In this document: one piece after another, positions 7,807 through 61,648 of the stretch | Numbering within the stretch: position 1 is the stretch's first letter | Layout: each line of letters opens with the position of its first letter | Made by a program: the position numbers and the translations under genes | Source of the DNA: Halopiger xanaduensis SH-6 | GTDB taxonomy: Archaea > Halobacteriota > Halobacteria > Halobacteriales > Natrialbaceae | DNA length: 64,000 nucleotides | Direction of reading: 5' to 3' | Assembly: GCF_000217715.1 (NCBI RefSeq) | Contig: NC_015666.1 | Location: 322,270 to 386,269 of the forward strand | The notes under the pieces: generated by a model | Database searches by the model: none | Told to the model about the DNA's origin: nothing | What the model saw: only the letters and a program-made list of their open reading frames with translations

Positions 7807-8151
7807 ATGCAGATGATGACGGCAACCATCAACGACGACCACATCGACGAGCGAATCGAGAACCCGCAGCCCAAGCACCTGCTCCGCCTCCGAGAAGGCA
7901 ACATCGTCCGCGCCCAGACGGAGAGTCACAGCGTCATTGGGTACGTGACCGAAGAAGGAGAGTTGGAGGAGTGGAGTGATGGCGAGACCTCCATCGGCGT
8001 CGAGATCTACGTTCCTGTTGAGGGAGAGGATCGGTTCGGTACGCTGATCTATTACAACGACTCGCATGGCGAGGGCTTGGTGCTGGACATCCTCCGGAGC
8101 GACGTCGACTGCGAGGATTTGCAGTTGCTTGAGGTGGTCAGCGATGAGTGA
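7807..8151 (+). CDS. Small acidic orphan, first of a coupled pair
   Basis: I chose the ATG at 7807 (114 residues). An earlier in-frame ATG at 7741 would begin inside the palindromic operator and add non-halophilic residues. The protein is acidic with a beta-rich middle (EGNIVRAQTESHSVIGYV ... GVEIYVPVEG). No family is recognised. Its stop overlaps the start of the next gene by 8 bases, so the two are co-translated. Segments such as LREGNIVRAQTE resemble LEEGDSVRVVSE in the neighbour, which hints that the two genes are old tandem duplicates. Confidence 0.6.
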   Translation: MQMMTATINDDHIDERIENPQPKHLLRLREGNIVRAQTESHSVIGYVTEEGELEEWSDGETSIGVEIYVPVEGEDRFGTLIYYNDSHGEGLVLDILRSDVDCEDLQLLEVVSDE

Positions 8152-8476
8152 CGTGGCGGAAGTCTTCATCGCGGACACGAGTAATGAGGCGCGGACGACT
8201 AGCGAGATCGTCGATCTGATGCAGGAACTCGAGGAGGGTGACTCGGTGCGTGTCGTGTCTGAGACACAGGACGTGCTGGCTCGTGTGGACGCCAACGTCG
8301 ACGCGTGGCGAGACTGGGAGGACGACCTGATTATCGAGGTGCCGTTGAAGGTCTACGGTGACTCGCGGCTGGAACATCGGCGGGACTACTTGGCGTGGAT
8401 CGGGTTCGGGCCGGTTGACTTCGGTGTGCCGGGGCGGGCAGAGCGGGAGCGCGTGGATGAACTCCACGTGATGTAG
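8144..8476 (+). CDS. Small acidic orphan, second of a coupled pair
   Basis: The ATG at 8144 overlaps the previous stop and gives 110 residues. The product is acidic with a probable N-terminal helix (ARTTSEIVDLMQELEEG) and a beta-rich second half. It has no recognised family. Weak similarity to the preceding protein suggests a common origin. It ends 116 bp before the stop codon of secY on the other strand. That gap holds no gene or clear terminator. Confidence 0.6.
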   Translation: MSDVAEVFIADTSNEARTTSEIVDLMQELEEGDSVRVVSETQDVLARVDANVDAWRDWEDDLIIEVPLKVYGDSRLEHRRDYLAWIGFGPVDFGVPGRAERERVDELHVM

Positions 8477-8592
8477 GGCGGGTTCGCGGTTCGGTCTTGT
8501 TCTCGGACGAATGCTTCTGCTAAGGAGTTATTGACGTTCGCAAAGAAGGATGCCGGCAGAAGTTTCGATTCGTCGGCTGTTTAAACGATTTT

Positions 8593-10056
8593 TTAATCTT
8601 TTCCAAACATCTGGCGCATCATCGGGTGCATCTCCATCATCTGCTCTTCGGCGATCTCCTCGTAGAGCTTGTAGGTGATGGAGACGGCCAGCAGCAGGCC
8701 GGTTCCGGTAACGGACCCGATGGTGCCGAGCATGTTCGCCCAGACGGCCAGCAGGCCGACCAGTGCGCCACCGATGACGGTCACCTGCGGGATATACCGC
8801 TCCATGACCTTCTCGATGACGCCGACGTTCTGTCGGAAGCCGGGGATCTGCATCCCGGAGTTCTGGATCTGCTGGGCGGTGGCTTCGGGACCCATGTCCG
8901 TCGTTTCGACCCAGAAGACGGCGAAGATCGCGCCGCCGACGATCATGAAGGTGAGGTCGACGGAGATGCGGATCAGCACCTGCCACGCTTCCTGGGTGAC
9001 GGCACCGGTCCACCACATCCAATCCTGAGGCCTGTAGATCGGCGCGAGGTAGTAGAAGAACCCGCCGACCGCTTCCCCCTCGGTGTACTGACCCAGCGCA
9101 GAGGGCATTCCGGCCCACTGGCTGTTCAGGATCTGGCCAAGCATCTGGATGTTCGCCTGCAGCGCGCGGACGAGGATCATCGGCAGGACGCTCGCGTAGA
9201 TGAGCTTCACCGGGAAGCGACCGCGAGCACCCTTCACGCGGGCGTGACTGAGCGGGATCTCGACCCGCACGGACTCCGCGTAGACGACGATGCCGAAGAT
9301 CAGCAGCGTCGTCAGCAGCGGGATGATCATCCCGCCGTCGGTCATCAGCAGCGTGGAGAGCCCGTCGGTGGAAACGACGGATCCGACCTCCATCTGCCCC
9401 GTGAGGATCATGTACCAGTTGTAGAAGAACCCGCCCTGTGCGGGCTGGATGAACCCGGCCACGAGTCGCTGGCTCACGCCGGCGATAATGAACAGGCCGA
9501 TCCCGCTCCCGACGCCCCACTTGCTAACGACCTCGTCCATGTAGAGGAGGAGGACACCGCCAGCGAAGATCTGCAGGAACATCAGCAGCTGGACCTGCGT
9601 TTGACCGAACTGGAGGCCACCGATCGACAGCGACTGCTGGGCTGGCAGGAAGCCGCTGGCGAACACCATCGGAAGCCCAGTGAGTGCCACCATCACGACG
9701 ACGAGCACCTTCTGGAGGCCCTGGTAGAGAACCTGATCCCGGGGGTCGTTGGTGTCGAGACCGAGCAGGTTCGCACCGCCGAGCAACTGCAAGACGATGC
9801 TCGCCGTGACGATCGGTCCGATACCGACCTGCAGGATCGAACCCTGCGACCCAGCGAGGATCGCACGGAACTGGCCGAAGAGGTCGTTCGCGCCGCCGGA
9901 TTGCATCCCGAGCAGCGAGATGTTCGTCAGGAAGAAGTACAACACGAGAATGCCGGCCGTCCACGCCAGCTTCCGCTTGAAGGGAACGTGCCCCTCCGGA
10001 CGCTGGACGGCGGGCATCCGCGTTAAGACCGGTTCAGCGGCTTCCTTCCATCCCAT
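8593..10056 (-). CDS. secY: Preprotein translocase subunit SecY
   Basis: This is the channel-forming subunit of the Sec61/SecYEG translocon in the cytoplasmic membrane (487 residues). The N terminus (WKEAAEPVLTRMPAVQRPEG) is the typical haloarchaeal amphipathic start. About ten hydrophobic segments follow, including LVLYFFLTNISLLG and the plug-proximal region GSQGSILQVGIGPIVTASIV. The basic, cytoplasmic C-terminal end is short (MRQMFGKD). It is the last gene of the ribosomal supercluster, 2 bp after L15, so ribosome and translocon synthesis are linked. The adk gene often found next is missing. Confidence 0.97.
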   Translation of the reverse strand: MGWKEAAEPVLTRMPAVQRPEGHVPFKRKLAWTAGILVLYFFLTNISLLGMQSGGANDLFGQFRAILAGSQGSILQVGIGPIVTASIVLQLLGGANLLGLDTNDPRDQVLYQGLQKVLVVVMVALTGLPMVFASGFLPAQQSLSIGGLQFGQTQVQLLMFLQIFAGGVLLLYMDEVVSKWGVGSGIGLFIIAGVSQRLVAGFIQPAQGGFFYNWYMILTGQMEVGSVVSTDGLSTLLMTDGGMIIPLLTTLLIFGIVVYAESVRVEIPLSHARVKGARGRFPVKLIYASVLPMILVRALQANIQMLGQILNSQWAGMPSALGQYTEGEAVGGFFYYLAPIYRPQDWMWWTGAVTQEAWQVLIRISVDLTFMIVGGAIFAVFWVETTDMGPEATAQQIQNSGMQIPGFRQNVGVIEKVMERYIPQVTVIGGALVGLLAVWANMLGTIGSVTGTGLLLAVSITYKLYEEIAEEQMMEMHPMMRQMFGKD

Positions 10057-10058
10057 CG

Positions 10059-10571
10059 TTAGTCCTCGCTCTGTTCGGTTTCGTCGGCGGCGTCCGTCTC
10101 CGCCTCGGATTCAGCGTCCGCTCGTTCCTGCGCTCGTTCCGAGAGGACCGCGTCGCCGCCGGCGTCTGCGAGCTTCTCCTCGGCCGCGTCCGAGAAGGCG
10201 TCGGCCGTGACCTCGAGGGCGTTGCGGACCTGGCCGGAGCCAAGGACCTTCACGGTGTCGACCTCGTGGCCGTCCTCGACGACGTCGCGTGCGTCGATCG
10301 CGTAGCCGTCGTCGGTTTCCTCGGCGACGCCCTCGGCTGCGTAGAGGATGGCGTCCTCGTCGAGCTTCTGGACGTCGATCTCCGCGACCTCTTCGCGGAT
10401 GTCCTGGGGTCGCTTGAAGCCGTGCTTGCCCTTCGGCTCGTAGTTGTGGAACTCGTGCTTGCTGCGCCCGGCGCGGCCGCGACCGCCGCGGTGGCCCGCA
10501 CCGCGTCGGTTCTTGTGGGAGCCACCGCTGTGCGTTCGTGACCCGCGTTGGCGTCGTTTTTTACTCGTCAT
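10059..10571 (-). CDS. rpl15: Large-subunit ribosomal protein uL15
   Basis: I chose the ATG at 10571 (170 residues); the longer open frame upstream overlaps L30. The basic N terminus with Gly-Arg-rich RNA-binding loops (GAGHRGGRGRAGRSKHEFH) is the uL15 signature. The C-terminal about 30 residues are a very acidic tail, as expected in halophiles. It contacts 23S rRNA in the large subunit. The gene starts 2 bp after the L30 stop and precedes secY. Confidence 0.96.
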   Translation of the reverse strand: MTSKKRRQRGSRTHSGGSHKNRRGAGHRGGRGRAGRSKHEFHNYEPKGKHGFKRPQDIREEVAEIDVQKLDEDAILYAAEGVAEETDDGYAIDARDVVEDGHEVDTVKVLGSGQVRNALEVTADAFSDAAEEKLADAGGDAVLSERAQERADAESEAETDAADETEQSED

Positions 10572-22307: not shown

Positions 22308-23186
22308 TCACTCTCGTAGTGAGAGGGGCGCGAGGGTGGCGAACAGAGCTTCCTCCGTTCGCACGACCTCGCTTCCCTGATCCGGAACCGTGTTGAGCCA
22401 GAGGTCGAACCCTGGTCCTGGATCGGCTGTGGGTTCGACGTTGCCGTCGTCCGCGTCGCCGCCGTATGCGGCAGCGACGTCGGACGCCTCGATTCCGAGG
22501 ATGGCCGGCAGCCCTCTCTCGGGCGCTCCGAAGGCGACGGTCAAACCGTCGCGATCGATGCGTCCGGCCAGCGTCTCGAGCCGCCCGACGGTGAGCCGTT
22601 CACCGTGTCGAGAGGCGGCGATGCGGACGCCAGCGTCCTCACGGCTGAGTGCTGCCGATAGGTCCGTTTGCTCGACGGAAAGCCCCGGAAGGGGTTCGTC
22701 GACGAGCTTCGCCCGGACCGGTCGTCGCGAAGAGATCCTGACGGTCACGCGCTCCCCCTCGTCGACCTCCATATCCGGAGGCGTGTTGAGGGAGATCGGG
22801 TGTTGCAGTCCGCAATTGACCCGGACGCGCCCTTCAGGTCCGACCTCGGTCACGATCCCTTGTCTTAACGACCCCGAATCGTTCGATTCGGAGCCGGTCT
22901 GTGACACCGCGCGCAGCGGCGGCAAGACGCCGGCGTACTCTAGTTCGTCCCGCATCCCCCACGCCTCGTTTCGGAGGTAGGGGGGCGTTGCGGCGTACCG
23001 CAGGACGGTGCTGACGAACCCGCCGTCGAATCGCCCCGTTTCGCCGTCCCGATCGGGATAGACGACGAGGCGATCGGCCCGGAAGATCGTCGCCGCGCGG
23101 GCGACGTATCCGAGTTTGCGAGTGGCCTCGCGTTTGTCCTCGGCTTCCCGGGTGAGCGACGACGGCACGAGTACGCTGACGGTCAT
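22308..23186 (-). CDS. SPOUT-family RNA methyltransferase (DUF171/C9orf114-like)
   Basis: The 292-residue protein matches the archaeal RNA methyltransferase family related to eukaryotic C9orf114/SPOUT1. Its N-terminal part is TVSVLVPSSLTREAEDKREA ... YVARAATIFRADRLVVYPD. An inserted OB-like segment follows at about residues 105-165, with CGLQHPISLNTPPDMEVDEG in it, and the trefoil-knot region is at the C terminus. It probably methylates a base in rRNA using S-adenosylmethionine. It heads the ribosomal transcript, with a TATA element (CTTTTAAGA) about 56-64 bp before its start, so its level should follow that of the ribosomal proteins. Confidence 0.85.
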   Translation of the reverse strand: MTVSVLVPSSLTREAEDKREATRKLGYVARAATIFRADRLVVYPDRDGETGRFDGGFVSTVLRYAATPPYLRNEAWGMRDELEYAGVLPPLRAVSQTGSESNDSGSLRQGIVTEVGPEGRVRVNCGLQHPISLNTPPDMEVDEGERVTVRISSRRPVRAKLVDEPLPGLSVEQTDLSAALSREDAGVRIAASRHGERLTVGRLETLAGRIDRDGLTVAFGAPERGLPAILGIEASDVAAAYGGDADDGNVEPTADPGPGFDLWLNTVPDQGSEVVRTEEALFATLAPLSLRE

Positions 23187-54903: not shown

Positions 54904-56283
54904 ATGACCACGAACACGGGTCCGAACGTCCTCGCGTTCGACGGCCGCATGGGTGCCAGCGGCGACATGCTCCTCGCCGCCCTGGTCGACGCCGGGGCCG
55001 ATCCCGACGCTCTCGAGGCGGTCGAAGCCACCCTCGAGATCGAGTACCGGATCGCCGAGACGGTCAAGTGCGGGATCGCGTCGACGACGGTCGACGTGGT
55101 GTTGACCGGTGAATCAGGTGACTCGAGCGGTCACGAACACGAGCACGACGAACACAGCCACCAGCACGACGGTCACGATCATTCGAGACACGAGCACGAT
55201 CACGGCCACGACGACCACAATCACGCGGACGGCCACTCGAGCGACGGCGACCACGACCACGTCCACGCCGAGGGTCACGGACCGCACCGCAGCTATCGGG
55301 AAGTCCGCGAGATCGTCGCGGACATGGCCCTCCCCGCCGCCGTCGAAGACGACGCGCTCGCGATCTTCAAACGGCTCGGCGAGGCCGAAGCCAGCGTCCA
55401 CGGCGAGACCCTAGAGGACATTCACTTCCACGAGGTCGGAGCCGACGACGCCATCGCGGACGTCGTCGGCGCGGCGGCGCTGGTCCACGACCTCGAGCCG
55501 GACCGGATCGTCACGACGCCGCTTTCGACCGGCGGCGGCACCGTCGGGATGAGCCACGGCGAGTACCCCGTCCCCACGCCGGCGGTGGTCGAAATCGCCC
55601 GGGAGGCCGACTGGTCGCTGCGCGGCGGGCCCGTCGACCGCGAACTGCTGACCCCGACCGGCGCGGCGATCCTCGCGCACTTCGCCGAGGGCGTCGACGA
55701 ACTCCCCTCGCTCGAGCTCGAGGCGTCGGGCTACGGCGCCGGCGGCTACGACCTCGATCCGCACCCGAACGTGCTCCGGGCGCTCGTCGGCCGAGGTGAC
55801 GGCTCGCTCGTGAAGGACGACATCGCCGTCCTCGAGACGAACCTCGACGATGCAACGCCGGAAGTGCTGGGCGGCCTGCAGGAGACGCTCTCGGACGCGG
55901 GCGCGCGAGACGTTTCGATTCTTCCGGCGACGATGAAGAAGTCCCGCCCGGGCCACCTCGTGAAGGTTATCTGCAAGCCCGAGGATCGGCAGCGCGTCGC
56001 TCGAGCGCTCGCCGAGGAGACGGGGACGCTCGGGGTTCGCGATGCGGGGGCGACACATCGGTGGATCGCACGGCGGGAGTTCGAGACGGTAGAGTTGGAA
56101 CTCGAGGGAGAGACCTACGAGGTGACCGTGAAAATCGCGAGTGACGCCGACGGCGAGGTTTACGACGTGAGTGCCGAGTACGAGGACGCGAAGGCGGTTG
56201 CTCGAGAAACCGAATTGTCGATTCGTGAGGTGATTCGGCGAGCGGAAGACCAGAGTCCGACAAATCGTAGAGACGAATTCTGA
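54904..56283 (+). CDS. larC: LarC-type nickel-insertion protein with His-rich region
   Basis: I chose the ATG at 54904 (459 residues); the frame upstream is not coding. The start AFDGRMGASGDMLLAAL carries the LarC signature (D-x-x-x-G-x-S-G-D-M). The protein has the family's C-terminal domains (VLETNLDDATPEVLGGLQET and MKKSRPGHLVKVICKPEDRQ). LarC inserts nickel into the pyridinium cofactor of lactate racemase (LarA) using CTP. Residues about 77-128 are a His/Asp-rich segment with more than 20 His residues, longer than in many homologues, probably for nickel storage. larA, larB and larE are not in this window. The last 560 bp are duplicated at 57540-58090. Confidence 0.9.
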   Translation: MTTNTGPNVLAFDGRMGASGDMLLAALVDAGADPDALEAVEATLEIEYRIAETVKCGIASTTVDVVLTGESGDSSGHEHEHDEHSHQHDGHDHSRHEHDHGHDDHNHADGHSSDGDHDHVHAEGHGPHRSYREVREIVADMALPAAVEDDALAIFKRLGEAEASVHGETLEDIHFHEVGADDAIADVVGAAALVHDLEPDRIVTTPLSTGGGTVGMSHGEYPVPTPAVVEIAREADWSLRGGPVDRELLTPTGAAILAHFAEGVDELPSLELEASGYGAGGYDLDPHPNVLRALVGRGDGSLVKDDIAVLETNLDDATPEVLGGLQETLSDAGARDVSILPATMKKSRPGHLVKVICKPEDRQRVARALAEETGTLGVRDAGATHRWIARREFETVELELEGETYEVTVKIASDADGEVYDVSAEYEDAKAVARETELSIREVIRRAEDQSPTNRRDEF

Positions 56284-56487: not shown

Positions 56488-57258
56488 TCAGAGAAGACCG
56501 TCGACGTCAAGGTCGAGGTCGAACTGCGCATCAAGGAAGTCCGATGCGTCCGAAGCATCATCGAAGGGACCGAATTGCTCACCGTCAACGATGACGAAGA
56601 CGCCAGCGGAAGTCTCGAATGCGGAGACATCCTCTTCACTGACACCGTCGTCGCCGTTAGTACCGTCGTCGCCGTTAGTACCGTCGTCGCCGTTAGTACC
56701 GTCGTCGCCGTCAGTTTCGTTCTCGTCGTCAGCACCGTCATCGGCGCCGAAGATGTTATCCTCGACGTCGATTTCCTGTTCGGGCTCGACGTCCTGCTCG
56801 GCGTCGACGCTCGAGTCAGCAGTCGCGTCGACGTCAGCAGCGTTGGTCTGGTCGACGTCCTGGTTCTGCGCGACTTCAGCGGTGGAGAACGCCGTCGCGC
56901 CAGTACCGGCACCGTTATCGGTAGCCGCAGCGCCGCCGGCACCGCCGCTCTTTTGTTTGGCGTGGTCCGCAGCGCCCGCAGCAGCGCCACCAGAGCCGGA
57001 GCCGCCAACGGCGAGCGCGTCACCGGACGTCGCGCTGGCCGTCTGCGCGTTGTTGTTGGTCTGGTCGACGCTCACTTCGGTCGTCGCGTCACCGGACTCG
57101 ATGTCCTGAATCGCCTCGACATCCTGGTCAAGGAGGTCTCCGTCGAAGAGATCGTCCGTGTCGGTATCGTTATCCTGTGCCGCTGCCGTTCCAGCGAGTG
57201 CCATCGCCGCAAGGGCGACCATCGCTACCGTCAGTGTGATTGCGAGTGCGCGCTTCAT
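56488..57258 (-). CDS. Secreted Q/N-repeat protein, curlin-like family (A1)
   Basis: I chose the ATG at 57258 (256 residues), which gives a Sec signal peptide (MKRALAITLTVAMVALAAMA ... TAAAQ) and probable cleavage after about residue 27. The mature protein has two family motifs, VDQTNNNAQ and NQDVDQTNAAD, separated by a Gly/Ala/Ser-rich spacer. Then come an Asp/Glu-rich part and four TNGDDG units (four 18-bp repeats), and a distinct C-terminal end (FVIVDGEQFGPFDDASDASD). It is paralogous to the protein at 58172-58816 and related to the large repeat protein at 59502. Probably secreted, extracellular or cell-surface; assembly into fibres is inference. 204 bp of non-coding DNA lie between it and larC. 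Confidence 0.75.
   Translation of the reverse strand: MKRALAITLTVAMVALAAMALAGTAAAQDNDTDTDDLFDGDLLDQDVEAIQDIESGDATTEVSVDQTNNNAQTASATSGDALAVGGSGSGGAAAGAADHAKQKSGGAGGAAATDNGAGTGATAFSTAEVAQNQDVDQTNAADVDATADSSVDAEQDVEPEQEIDVEDNIFGADDGADDENETDGDDGTNGDDGTNGDDGTNGDDGVSEEDVSAFETSAGVFVIVDGEQFGPFDDASDASDFLDAQFDLDLDVDGLL
56644..56715 (-). repeat. Four tandem 18-bp repeats inside the A1 gene
   Basis: The unit (plus strand ACCGTCGTCGCCGTTAGT) occurs at 56644, 56662, 56680 and 56698, the last with one changed base. In protein each unit is TNGDDG or NGDDGT. The paralogue at 58172 lacks them, so they arose or expanded after the duplication. They are in frame and variable in principle. Confidence 0.85.
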
Positions 57259-57539
57259 AGTTGAATTTTTGCTGTTTATGAGGCACGCATCACACGGGAG
57301 TACCGCTCCGCAACCGAGCTCGACCCTTTCCGCGGGCCGCCGCTCGTCACGGGAGGTACCAACCGACTCCCGACGCATCCCCTGTGACGCGTTGCCCAGT
57401 CGCTGCTCATCACGGAGTCCCACTTCAACCCGAACTACAGTTTCAGGGGAAGACTCGAATTAGAAGTGCTACAGCTGTTGATCTGTTTCTGCTGATGGAG
57501 ATTTCATTGTTCCTAATACTACACCTTCGAACGAGACGA

Positions 57540-58090
57540 GAACCGCCCGTCGCTCGAGATCGAGGCTCGAGCCACGGCGCCGACAGCTTCGACCTCGATC
57601 CACACCCAGACGTGCTCCGGGCGCTCGTCGGCCGGAACGAGAGGGGTGCTCGTGACCGACGACATCGCCGTCCTCGAGACGAACCTCGAGCCACGCGACG
57701 CCGAAAGTCATAGCCTACAGGACGAATTTATGGACGCGGGCGAGCGTGGCGTTTCGATCCTGCCGGCGATGATGAAGAAGTTCCGCCCTGGCGACCTCGT
57801 GAAGATCATCTGCAAACCCAGGCATCGCCAGCGCGTCGCTCGAGCGCTGACCGAGAAGACGGGACATTAGGTGTTCGTAATGCAGGGATCGGGGCGACGC
57901 ATCGATGGATTGCACAGCAAGAGTTCGAGACGGAGGGTTGGTACTCGACGGCGAAACCCACGAAGTGACTGTGAAATAGCGAGCGATGCCGACGGCGAGA
58001 TTTACGACGTCAGTGCCGAGTGCGAGGACCGAAGGTAGTTGCTCGAAAAGTCGATTTGTCGAATCGAAGTGTGATTCAACAGGCAGAAAC
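57540..58090 (+). pseudogene. larC 3' fragment, duplicated and decayed
   Basis: Read on the plus strand, the segment repeats larC from about codon 265 to the end: VTDDIAVLETNLEPRDAESH, MKKFRPGDLVKIICKPRHRQ and RVARALTEKTGH match the parent. Frames are broken by small indels around 57650, a stop at 57868-57870 (where the parent continues GTLGVRD) and another stop near 57976 (TAG, parent AAAATC). The fragment has no start and no N-terminal half. It marks the duplication that also copied the secreted-protein gene. Confidence 0.85.
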
Positions 58091-58171: not shown

Positions 58172-58816
58172 TTATCCTTCAGTTGCGTTCAGGTCGACGT
58201 CAGCATTGATCGCATCGACGATGTCAGCGATCGAGTCCTCGCTCAGGTCGACGGTCTCGTTACCGTTGTCAGTGCCGTCGTCGACACCGTCACCGGCGTT
58301 GACTTCGTTATCTTCGACTTCGACTTCCTGTTCGGGTTCGACGTTCTGCTCGGCGTCGACGCTCGAGTCCGCATTAGCGTCGATCTGCGCAGCGTTGGTC
58401 TGGTCGACGTCCTGGTTCTGCGCGACTTCAGCAGTGGAGAACGCCGTAGCGCCAGTGCTGGCACCGTTATCGGTAGCCGTAGCGCCGGCACCGCTACCGC
58501 TCTTGTACTTAGCGTGATCCGCGGCGCCCGCAGCGCCGGCACCGCCGCCGTTACCGGAGCTACCAGCGACCGCGTCACCGGACGTCGCGCTGGCCGTCTG
58601 CGCGTTGTTGTTGGTCTGGTCGACGCTCACTTCGGTCGTCGCGTCACCGGACTCGATGTCCTGCTCCGCATCGACGTCCTGATCGAGGAGGTCTCCGTCG
58701 AAGAGATCGTCGGTTTCGTTGTCTCCGTTGTCCTGTGCAGCTGCCGTTCCAGCGAGTGCCATCGCCGCAACGGCGATCATCGCTACCGTCAGTGTGATTG
58801 CGAGTGCGCGCTTCAT
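58172..58816 (-). CDS. Secreted Q/N-repeat protein, curlin-like family (A2)
   Basis: I chose the ATG at 58816 (214 residues). The signal peptide (MKRALAITLTVAMIAVAAMA) is nearly identical to the one in A1. The mature protein has the same two motifs VDQTNNNAQ and NQDVDQTNAAQ, the Gly/Ala-rich spacer with a DHAKYK segment, and an Asp/Glu-rich region. It ends in SEDSIADIVDAINADVDLNA, unlike A1. It lacks the TNGDDG units. The upstream 240 bp are nearly the same as for A1, so both probably share regulation. Probably secreted. Confidence 0.75.
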   Translation of the reverse strand: MKRALAITLTVAMIAVAAMALAGTAAAQDNGDNETDDLFDGDLLDQDVDAEQDIESGDATTEVSVDQTNNNAQTASATSGDAVAGSSGNGGGAGAAGAADHAKYKSGSGAGATATDNGASTGATAFSTAEVAQNQDVDQTNAAQIDANADSSVDAEQNVEPEQEVEVEDNEVNAGDGVDDGTDNGNETVDLSEDSIADIVDAINADVDLNATEG

Positions 58817-59343
58817 ATTGATGAGTTTCGTGTTTATGAGGCACGCATCACACGGGGGTACCAGCTCCGCAACGGAGCGTCGACCGCTATCCGCAGGCCG
58901 CCGCTCGTCGCGGGAGGTACCAACCGACTCCCGACGCATCCCCGCTGTGACGCGTTGCCCAGTCGCTGCTCATCACGGAGTTCCACTTCAACCCGGACCA
59001 CAGTTTCAGGGGAAGACTCGCATTAGAAGTTCTGCAACCGTTGATCTCTATCTGTTGGGTCGGCTTTCACTCGCTGCAACTGTCCCTCCCAATCGATACG
59101 ATCAGCTTAGCGAACCGTTCGTTCCTCGTTCCGGCAACGGCATCACGCGGTGCCGTCCCCGAAATACCGAGTATGAACTGCGAGGGTTTGCGACCGGCTT
59201 CCAGTAACCACGGCCTTTGCGCCGTGAAACAGTCCCCAATTTCGATACGTAGCCGGCGATTTCGAGACCTCGAGACCGTCAGTGACGGCTGTATAGCATT
59301 TGAGATGGGTTAGCACACCATCAGATCGAGCGGGCCGCGATCG

Positions 59344-59432
59344 AAGTTTCCCCCTTCCGGTCGTAAGTTCCACCCTTCGGAACGGTAGGTCGCTTCATAT
59401 TTGCCGAAACTGACAGATAACAAAGTCTGTCA
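59344..59432 (+). promoter_or_regulatory. Control region of the large curlin-like gene
   Basis: Two imperfect direct repeats (AAGTTTCCCCCTTCCGG at 59344-59360 and AAGTTCCACCCTTCGGA at 59365-59381) lie 21 bp apart, two turns of the helix. They are followed by TTCATATTTG at about 59394, a possible TATA element. Further on is a perfect palindrome (TGACAGA at 59411-59417, TCTGTCA at 59426-59432, spacer TAACAAAG). A leader of about 75 nt would follow. The layout suggests an activator site upstream and an operator or RNA structure downstream. The interval 59056-59340 holds no gene. Confidence 0.4.
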
Positions 59433-59501: not shown

Positions 59502-61052
59502 ATGACAAACACGACGACGATACGTTCACAGTGTACGACGGTTCTTATGGCATGTATAGTCGCCGTAGCGATGCTCTCGGTCGGCGTGCCGGCGGCCGCA
59601 GCCGCCGAAGACGCCGAGACTGAGGGCGACGGCAGCGCTGGTACGCCCTACGCGCTCGAGGACGACGAAGGCCTGTACCTGGTCTTCGGCGCCGAGCTGG
59701 GAGACATGACCCTCGAGGAGTACATCGAGGAGCACGCGTCCGGCGATCAGATGGACGACGTCGAGATCTCCCAGTACCAGGACGTCGACCAGGTCAACAT
59801 CAACCAGCAGGAGAACGCGACGTCGATCTCGATCGACGGCGGCGAGGCCACGGCGGTGCAGGAGGCCTCGCAGTACAACGATAACGAACAGTACGCGGAC
59901 GCGAACGCGGACAACACGCAGGCGGTCCAGACGGAGTTCGAGGACGTCGGCGAGGTCACGATCCTCATCGGCGACGGCGACGGCAAGTCGTTCGACGGCT
60001 GGGGCATCGCCGACAAGAAGGGCCACAAGCCCGAGATCGACAACGCCGACCAGACGGCCGAAGCCGAAGTGACGCAGGTCCAGGAAGTTGCCCAGCTCAA
60101 CTACAACGAGCAGAACATCGCGTTCGCGATCGCGGAGAACGGCAGCGAAGCGACCGCGCTCCAGCAGTCCCAGCAGTCCAACGAGAACCTGCAACAGGGC
60201 GTCGCGAACGCGACCAACGTCTACACGGGCAACGGTCAGTTCGAGGACCAGGCCGCAGAAGCGGCGGTCCAGCAGGGCCAGGCCGTCAGCCAGGAGAACA
60301 TCAACCAGCAGGACGGCGCCGTTGCGATCGCCGTCGGCAACGACAGCGTCGCGACCGCGATCCAGATGACGGAGCAGACCAACCTCAACGAACAGATCGG
60401 CAACGCGACCGCCGAAAACGTCATCCAGTCGCTCGGCGGCATGAACGTCGCCACGGCCGGTCTCGACGACGACACCCAGGTCCTCGACACCGAGCGCTCG
60501 GTCGAGACGCTGCTCGCCGACAAGGAGGGCGACCACCACAAGAAGAGCGACGAGAAGGTCCAGACGGCCACCTCCGAAGTGGCCCAGAACCAGACCGCCG
60601 AGCAGATGAACGTCAACCTGCAGAACACGGCGCTGGCGCTCGCGACCAACGAGAGCAACGCCACCGCCGTCCAGTTGGCCTACCAGTCCAACATCAACTC
60701 GCAGGTCGGCGCCGCCGACGCGCTGAACGTCTACGCCGGCCCGAGCCACCAGTACGAGAACGCGATCGTGACCTCGACCACGAGCGTGACCGTTGGCGGC
60801 GAAGACGTCGACGGTATCGAAGGGATCTCGTACGACAGCGACGCGCAGCAGACGAACGATCCCCAGCAGCACGCGAGCGCCCAGATCGCGCAGGTGCAGT
60901 TCATCACGCAGGAGAACGTCAACGAGCAGCACGCCGCCATCGCCGTAGCCGAAAACGGAGATGACGCCGACGCTGCGCAGGTGACCATGCAGGAGAACGA
61001 GAACGTCCAGTTCGGGTCCGTCGCCGCGACGAACCTCTGGGCTGCAGCGTAA
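59502..61052 (+). CDS. Large secreted protein with ten curlin-like Q/N repeats (B)
   Basis: The 516-residue protein begins with a signal peptide (VLMACIVAVAMLSVGVPAAA, cleavage near residue 35) and an acidic N-terminal part. Then five repeats of 53-57 residues follow (about 88-140, 189-242, 254-310, 358-413, 459-515). Each holds two half-motifs of the form Q-x3-Q-x-N-x-N-x-Q, 27 or 28 residues apart, for example QTAEQMNVNLQ and QLAYQSNINSQ. Between them lie A-x-A-I/L-A-type strands. Spacers of variable, partly charged sequence separate repeats 1-2 and 3-4. The alternating Gln/Asn ladder resembles CsgA curlin repeats and suggests a beta-solenoid that could polymerise. No sortase or membrane anchor is visible, so it is probably extracellular. 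Confidence 0.8.
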   Translation: MTNTTTIRSQCTTVLMACIVAVAMLSVGVPAAAAAEDAETEGDGSAGTPYALEDDEGLYLVFGAELGDMTLEEYIEEHASGDQMDDVEISQYQDVDQVNINQQENATSISIDGGEATAVQEASQYNDNEQYADANADNTQAVQTEFEDVGEVTILIGDGDGKSFDGWGIADKKGHKPEIDNADQTAEAEVTQVQEVAQLNYNEQNIAFAIAENGSEATALQQSQQSNENLQQGVANATNVYTGNGQFEDQAAEAAVQQGQAVSQENINQQDGAVAIAVGNDSVATAIQMTEQTNLNEQIGNATAENVIQSLGGMNVATAGLDDDTQVLDTERSVETLLADKEGDHHKKSDEKVQTATSEVAQNQTAEQMNVNLQNTALALATNESNATAVQLAYQSNINSQVGAADALNVYAGPSHQYENAIVTSTTSVTVGGEDVDGIEGISYDSDAQQTNDPQQHASAQIAQVQFITQENVNEQHAAIAVAENGDDADAAQVTMQENENVQFGSVAATNLWAAA

Positions 61053-61300: not shown

Positions 61301-61648
61301 TCAGTCGAACATCTCGCCGACGTTCGCGAGCGTCTGGTCGACGATGTCGGTGCCGAAGTCGGTGTCGATGAAGTCGTCACCGCCGTCGACGGCGTCGCCG
61401 TCCTCGTCAGATAGGTCGCCGGTTCCGTCCGTCGCAAATGACGTCTCGGTCTCCGTCACACTCTCCTCGATCGTCTGCGAACTCTCGTTTTGAACCGATA
61501 CGTTCTCGGTTGCTTCGCCGGTCTCGACCGACTCCGAGACCGATTCGCTTTCCTGTGCTGTTGCCGCTCCGATGCCGAAGGTCATCGCCAGCAATCCGAC
61601 GACGACCATCGCCGTAAGTAACCGCTGACCGATCTTCCGTCCAATCAT
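61301..61648 (-). CDS. Small secreted acidic protein, diverged family member (C)
   Basis: The 115-residue protein has a signal peptide (LLTAMVVVGLLAMTFGIGAA, cleavage near TAQ). The mature part starts with a segment (ETGEATENVSVQNESSQT) that can be aligned with SGDATTEVSVDQTNNNAQ of A1/A2, but without the Gln/Asn ladder. The rest is Asp/Glu/Thr-rich, with GDDFIDTDFGTDIVDQTLAN at the end. It is convergent with the large repeat gene (about 248 bp of non-coding DNA between) and may be an accessory such as a capping or chaperone-like protein. That role is inference. Confidence 0.6.
   Translation of the reverse strand: MIGRKIGQRLLTAMVVVGLLAMTFGIGAATAQESESVSESVETGEATENVSVQNESSQTIEESVTETETSFATDGTGDLSDEDGDAVDGGDDFIDTDFGTDIVDQTLANVGEMFD

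Follow-up and report, generated by a model that had tools for sequence, protein, structure and literature searches.

The locus and its neighbourhood

The window analysed here is a 64,000-nt stretch of the Halopiger xanaduensis SH-6 genome (contig NC_015666.1, positions 322,270 to 386,269). Towards its 3' end lies a gene encoding a repetitive protein rich in glutamine and asparagine, hereafter the ladder protein, which is preceded by a palindrome and, further upstream, by two divergently oriented genes for small secreted Q/N proteins (Table 1). The annotations read for the neighbourhood name larC, hypothetical proteins and the radB region; at the 72 loci at which we found relatives of the ladder gene, tblastn matches to larC were present in 30 and matches to the radB-adjacent downstream gene in 29, with any match length counted. 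Downstream of the ladder gene, positions 61301-61648 of the window (minus strand) encode a small secreted protein rich in Ser, Glu and Thr, relatives of which occur at 6 of the 72 loci. Elsewhere in the window (22738-22837, minus strand) the Rfam model of the L4-Archaeoglobi ribosomal-protein leader matches strongly (74.6 bits), and this in a haloarchaeal host.

The 10-base core of the palindrome (GATAACAAAG) was invariant in all 13 aligned upstream regions, and its 18-base core has a single exact copy in the whole genome. That the conserved upstream DNA might be coding was rejected, because one-base indels between close relatives break the frame.

Table 1. Features of the ladder locus, in window coordinates.
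Feature	Position	Strand	Remarks
Second, tandem-duplicated small Q/N protein copy, 256 aa	56488..57258	-	Translation, neighbour comparison
larC 3' end remnant carried in the duplication	57546..58077	+	80.5% identical to 55704-56236
214-aa small secreted Q/N protein, MKRALAITL...GTAAAQ, with a pair of Q/N arms; minor-subunit or nucleator candidate	58172..58816	-	Translation; homologous divergent genes elsewhere
Palindrome TGACAGA-N8-TCTGTCA; candidate operator or leader element	59411..59432	+	69 bp before ATG of the ladder gene
Five-repeat Q/N ladder protein; major subunit candidate	59502..61052	+	ORF, 516 aa
N-terminal export signal (putative), residues ~1-35, no twin-arginine motif	59502..59606	+	Hydrophobic stretch read from sequence; cleavage site inferred
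Short conserved N-terminal segment, residues 50-80 (Y-L-V-F-G-A ... L-E-E-Y)	59649..59741	+	Invariant columns; strand and helix in model
Repeat 1	59754..59921	+	Residues 85-140; half-motifs at 93, 120
Repeat 2	60057..60224	+	Residues 186-241; half-motifs at 194, 221
Repeat 3	60255..60425	+	Residues 252-308; half-motifs at 260, 288
Repeat 4	60567..60734	+	Residues 356-411; half-motifs at 364, 391
Repeat 5	60873..61040	+	Residues 458-513; half-motifs at 466, 493

The ladder protein contains five exact double-motif repeats

The first-pass annotation of this stretch had described ten half-motifs of the form Q-x3-Q-x-N-x-N-x-Q in the ladder protein, paired at spacings of 27, 27, 28, 27 and 27 residues. 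Both the positions and the spacings were reproduced exactly, and the ten sites listed in Table 1 are the only occurrences of the strict motif in the protein. With a relaxed form of the half-motif, the real protein again had 10 sites, whereas its shuffled versions (10,000) averaged 0.02 and reached 2 at most. The five repeats, each 56-57 residues long, scored 90-139 against one another with BLOSUM62, where the shuffle maxima were 53-64, and their pairwise z values were 10.5-18.2 (500 shuffles per pair). An internal repeat signal, whose absence had been named beforehand as grounds for abandoning the idea, is therefore clearly present. The spacers between the repeats measure 44, 9, 46 and 45 residues by our repeat boundaries, so that their lengths do vary as had been described, although the range of 9-46 is slightly off the 12-60 residues first given.

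The pattern of the putative export signal, M-T-x..RSxxTTVLMACIVA, is kept in relatives of the ladder protein. Residues A, Q, E and N abound in the protein, which is also strongly acidic, with 87 D+E versus 9 K+R in 481 residues. The short conserved segment that precedes the repeats is modelled by AlphaFold2 as a strand (residues 22-27) followed by a helix (residues 36-43, mature-protein numbering).

A widespread family in Haloarchaea

Relatives at E 1e-5 or better were present in 84 of 391 sampled genomes of the class, 79 of these 84 belonging to the host's own family. In a collection of genomes from 84,980 species, the 72 loci comprise 71 haloarchaeal ones and one from a Thermincola MAG (L105). 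Nine plasmid records carry relatives, labelled "hypothetical protein" or "PGF-CTERM sorting domain-containing protein". When a profile of 61 repeats (A4) was used, 15 of 392 genomes of the phylum matched, with exactly five repeats in 14 of them and ten in the remaining one.

The ladder protein had no Pfam match up to E 1 and nothing credible in NCBIfam or PHROGs, and the weak rows that these three libraries returned for its uncharacterised neighbours fell below the cut-offs. Neither phmmer nor profile searches of PDB chain sequences recovered a relative; one profile match, to PhoQ (E 0.096), was discarded as what looks like a chance Q/N run. No match was obtained in viral contigs searched with the ladder protein or in phage records searched with the bacterial relative, and we found no paper on the family among the open-access papers searched.

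A tree of 64 proteins has two clades, one of 42 rows, from Natrialbaceae, that lacks twin-arginine motifs and a wider one of 22 rows, 20 of them with twin-arginine-type N-termini, with two label changes on the tree; the long branches or unusual composition of several rows make the details of this tree uncertain. Both types occur together in three genomes (L051/L083, L054/L082 and L056/L084). A PGF-CTERM-like C-terminal tail was found in members of both clades (L068, L070, L073-L076, L078 and L096); the window protein ends without one. More divergent Haladaptatus relatives, at 33-36% identity, were seen at two loci (L106, 8001-9837; L107, 8001-8357), where our script detected three relaxed half-motifs in none of the ORFs; they possibly represent a third subfamily.

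The bacterial locus (Thermincola, Bacillota; 8064-10376) consists of three tandem genes with two repeats each, and the repeat is the same 56-residue one (E 1e-32 to 3e-19 against the haloarchaeal profile). Its proteins differ from the haloarchaeal family in that a signal peptide is not evident and the C-terminal domain is another one. Two YheC/D ATP-grasp genes (PF14398), which we take to be of a family annotated as spore-coat associated, lie nearby on the upstream side. This genome was the sole match among 398 sampled genomes of its phylum.

Conservation follows an inward-outward alternation and the order of the repeats

The pairing of half-motifs is kept across the family: among 310 pairs in 68 members (relaxed motif), the spacing was 27 in 242, 28 in 67 and 26 in a single pair. 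Across 61 repeats, four of them bacterial, nine columns are invariant (six Gln, three Asn). We scored the anatomy of the repeat on those 241 of the 309 extracted repeats that span 57 residues (27-residue spacing). Entropy was low at every second, inward position from -8 to +10 (A A V Q Q V Q N N Q), at +13, +15 and +17 (A A A) and at every second position from +23 to +45 (A A Q s Q N N Q G A A N); these inward, alternate positions are nearly invariant Q, N or A, while the intervening outward positions vary. Each half-motif is followed by a run of small residues, A at +13/+15/+17 after the first and G/A/A at +12/+14/+16 after the second. The parity thus shifts by one residue after half-motif 1 and stays unshifted after half-motif 2, a difference that argues against the halves being equivalent stacked coils. 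Among the features by which we judged likeness to functional amyloids, imperfect repeats, conserved inward Asn/Gln and predicted strands compatible with a cross-beta arrangement are found here.

For 320 repeats from 64 proteins, we sought the nearest repeat in proteins no more than 50% identical overall. It occupied the same ordinal position in 305 of the 320 cases, and mean repeat identity was 0.56 between repeats of the same ordinal, 0.42 between different ordinals and 0.44 within one protein. This ordinal identity suggests that the five-repeat protein probably predates the divergence of its family, and it would be expected if the repeats were ordered layers; judging by the sequences, the five repeats are probably not interchangeable.

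A divergent small secreted Q/N gene usually accompanies the ladder gene

The two small Q/N genes of the window arose by a tandem duplication (56724-57450 versus 58276-59013, 87.8% identity), with a larC fragment left between the copies. Across the loci, the signal peptide of the small partner (about MKRxLxLTLTVALIGSLMFMGFAGTAAA) is strongly conserved, and the protein usually bears two Q/N arms. We searched the 2.6 kb upstream with a regular expression for such proteins. Of the 46 loci whose ladder protein lacks a twin-arginine motif, the window's among them, 40 had a divergent small Q/N gene there, as compared with 1 of 66 in the same-strand upstream control, 1 of 128 in the downstream strand-windows and 1 of 20 loci with twin-arginine signals. 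This expression had been loosened once, because obvious misses were seen at the stricter setting, at which the respective counts were 21/46, 0/66, 0/128 and 0/20. Some of the six loci missed by the looser version (e.g., L061 and L062) do have the small gene. The loci in this test, which omitted L105-L107 and four loci whose upstream sequence was short, are non-independent, and L048 and L049, from the plasmid and the chromosome of a single strain, look like one locus copied.

The likeness of the small proteins to the ladder repeat differs between lineages. In Haladaptatus they consist of a single clean repeat (E 4.5e-15 to 1.1e-12 against the repeat profile), and in many Natrialbaceae the likeness is weak. 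Of the window's own copies, the 256-aa one reached E 0.086 and the 214-aa one was unlisted at E 10; in the small proteins of this lineage, the order of the arms looks swapped.

Predicted structure and fold comparison

AlphaFold2 was run on the mature ladder protein with an alignment (A2) of 63 relatives, from which we omitted L105-L107, the partial L102 and, as near-duplicates by judgement, L049, L061, L071, L097 and L098. In the full model (mean pLDDT 66.7, pTM 0.63), the repeat blocks are all-beta at pLDDT of about 70-94, and the spacers and the N-terminus are largely below 50, the spacers being predicted to be disordered. Both in this model and in that of a two-repeat construct, each repeat comprises one strand of ~20-22 residues, a short one and one of ~25 residues, and zero helix falls on any motif, helices across the Q/N motifs being the other observation that the first-pass annotation had named as speaking against a beta-ladder. 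We are highly confident that the ladder protein belongs to a real, conserved, beta-forming and exported repeat family.

The two-repeat construct had the same strands at weaker confidence (mean pLDDT 75.9, pTM 0.47), and since two repeats alone fall below the best repeat blocks of the five-repeat chain, the comparison hints at repeat-on-repeat stacking. We read the succession of long, short and long strands as one long arch per repeat. In these models the structural unit is probably the whole ~56-residue repeat, a strand-turn-strand layer, rather than two 27-residue coils, and we regard it as fairly likely that each repeat forms one layer and that the layers stack. Side-chain volume complementarity of the proposed facing arms did not support the register (permutation p 0.26).

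Against 350,542 PDB chains, significance was never reached with Foldseek. The top row for the full model was FapC (9nqd; E 0.14, probability 0.02). For the two-repeat model, the first row was likewise FapC (9u4u; E 0.077, probability 0.06, the best value overall), followed by FapC 9nqd at rank 3, the CsgA fibril 8enq at rank 4 and HET-s at ranks 13 and 17, all non-significant. Many further weak rows for this model belong to folds that we take to be beta-solenoids or beta-helices, for example a filamentous haemagglutinin domain, SufB/SufD and ice-binding proteins. Superposition on the amyloid rows failed (rmsd 24-29 A, TM-scores at most about 0.2), and VIA-align of the models against the fold hits gave zero alignments with Z >= 2. 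Given these E values and the failed superposition, we treat the FapC rows as a lead towards functional-amyloid architecture and not as a match.

A proposed extracellular fibre and its alternatives

We favour, at a probability of roughly 0.55, the reading in which haloarchaea build an extracellular, amyloid-like (cross-beta) fibre with the ladder protein as its major subunit. The protein would be exported from the cell by means of its putative N-terminal signal, and each ~56-residue repeat would then fold as one long beta-arch layer, in which a first strand (A-x-A-x-V-x-Q-x-Q-x-V-x-Q-x-N-x-N-x-Q) leads through a kink to a short A-x-A-x-A strand and from there, round a turn, to a last strand (A-x-A-x-Q-x3-Q-x-N-x-N-x-Q-x-G-x-A-x-A-x-N). 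Layers 1 to 5 would stack in order, the inward Gln and Asn making hydrogen-bonded rows along the axis, and end-to-end stacking of monomers would yield the fibre, on whose outside the variable acidic spacers would form loops. The divergent small secreted protein, carrying one pair of the same arms, would probably nucleate, cap or co-polymerise with it. Through the PGF-CTERM anchor in which some relatives end instead, the fibre would be held at the cell, and within biofilms it may serve in cell-cell or surface adhesion.

Three other readings were weighed. A disordered acidic linker of low complexity, rich in Q/N, lacking any defined fold and conserved in composition only, would suit the richness in A, Q, E and N and the low pLDDT of the spacers and the N-terminus; however, the repeats resemble one another at z of 10-18, beta structure is predicted over all five of them, the inward positions are fixed while the outward ones vary, and the Q/N invariance is position-specific across 61 repeats. 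It is because of this position-specific conservation that such a linker is already largely excluded, and we consider it very improbable. The first-pass annotation had been right that the ladder is real, conserved, predicted to be beta and distinct from random low complexity, but its proposal of 27-residue solenoid coils, with the protein as a chain of five short solenoids, is disfavoured. In that arrangement, each half would be one coil, giving five independent two-coil solenoids on flexible spacers. The same core motif does recur in both halves at a fixed spacing of 27-28, as it would in tandem coils, and the spacers are predicted to be disordered; yet the parity after the motif is unlike between the halves, strands of 20-26 residues misfit a three-sided 27-residue coil, confidence drops in the two-repeat construct, the ordinal identity of the repeats points elsewhere, and the core left to each solenoid would be very small. 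We hold this arrangement to be improbable.

The ladder protein might instead be a monomeric surface adhesin or spacer, built of one or several stable beta-solenoids that bind cells, polysaccharide or mineral without polymerising. We judge this unlikely, even though the predicted repeats are beta-rich, many of the weak Foldseek rows fall into classes that we take to be beta-solenoids or beta-helices, the chain is extremely acidic, and a C-terminal PGF-CTERM anchor in some relatives fits a single anchored molecule. Separate secreted genes with one repeat are hard to account for if the solenoid is monomeric, ordered stacking suits the fixed repeat number and the ordinal identities equally well or better, and a capping domain is not evident.

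The fibre reading thus draws on the exact repeats with their nine invariant columns, the in/out alternation, the all-beta repeats and their five ordinal identities, together with the presence of five repeats in 14 of the 15 matching genomes, the FapC top rows (non-significant), the linked small Q/N gene, the single-repeat proteins of Haladaptatus, the plan shared with FapC and the dye staining of Haloferax, the last two of which are taken up below. Counted against the fibre were the non-significant Foldseek values, the failed superposition, the mean pLDDT of 66.7, the p of 0.26 in the arm test, the lack of a curlin repeat or CsgG, the weak match of the Natrialbaceae small proteins, the partner gene in 1 of 20 twin-arginine loci, and the acidic spacers, which would equally fit a soluble monomeric surface protein.

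A broader version of the fibre reading, to which we give somewhat less than even odds, is that of a haloarchaeal two-component functional amyloid with a five-layer major subunit, a divergent one-layer nucleator and an upstream palindrome. It would have arisen independently of curli and Fap by convergence on an Asn/Gln-ladder design, would serve as matrix in the biofilms of this lineage in saturated salt, and its repeat would have been reused in a bacterium of a spore-forming lineage. The fibre reading, if true, would provide an archaeal, salt-adapted imperfect-repeat amyloid and a new repeat for comparing how Asn/Gln rows determine fibre architecture, as well as a fibre that, with its strongly acidic surface, would have to assemble at multi-molar salt, a point of interest for materials. 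The question of haloarchaeal amyloids becomes directly testable with such a family, which is widespread and unannotated, follows a plan like that of Fap and curli and has a small candidate subunit genetically linked to it.

Comparison with known systems

Staining of the Haloferax volcanii biofilm matrix with Congo red and thioflavin T has been reported (PMC4180959), and HVO_1403 is the only amyloid candidate gene named in the part of that report considered here, where it was left untested. Among the known systems closest to the ladder protein is an archaeal amyloid, MspA of the Methanospirillum sheath, an extracellular protein with imperfect repeats and conserved G, A, N and Q, whose gene is described as lying outside any operon (PMC6242892). 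According to the same source, MspA has two ~80-aa repeats and forms a tubular sheath, as opposed to the five ~56-residue repeats found here.

With the curli subunits CsgA and CsgB, the ladder protein shares Q/N-anchored strand-turn-strand repeats, inward small hydrophobic residues, the number of five repeats (as in the E. coli subunit) and, in the reading proposed, the combination of a major and a related minor subunit. The curlin repeat is described as a unit of about 23 residues with N-x-psi-x-psi-x-Q twice (PMC10192328), whereas the ladder repeat has 56-57 residues with Q-x3-Q-x-N-x-N-x-Q twice. Whole-genome searches with Curlin_rpt (PF07012) found nothing at E 10, and with CsgG (PF03783) nothing at E 0.1, both models being positive in the E. 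coli control, and a genome search with an outer-membrane beta-barrel model found nothing either. Since neither a curlin repeat nor CsgG was recovered, the secretion or assembly machinery, if any, would be different or absent.

Of the Fap subunits FapC and FapB, FapC is described as containing three imperfect repeats, each forming one cross-beta layer, with a conserved Asn/Gln network and linkers of about 30-260 residues (PMC12392863, PMC12822426), and three repeats are given as almost universal (PMC12822426). Imperfect repeats in a fixed number, variable linkers, conserved Asn/Gln rows, ordinal-distinct repeats (IR1-IR3 in FapC), ~50-60 residues per repeat in a layer (a proposed one here), a related second subunit (here a candidate) encoded nearby and, putatively, export are features common to both systems. 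They differ in that the ladder protein has five repeats instead of three and another consensus, that its host is a haloarchaeon without an outer membrane, that its candidate small subunit is a single-repeat, divergently transcribed one, and that we noticed no fap accessory genes in the flanking annotations that we read; among all PDB chains, the solved FapC chains showed no detectable sequence match to the ladder protein (phmmer and profile searches). By analogy, we propose that the ladder protein may work in the manner of FapC or CsgA, as a member of a family that is apparently unrelated to curli and Fap fibres and probably of independent origin.
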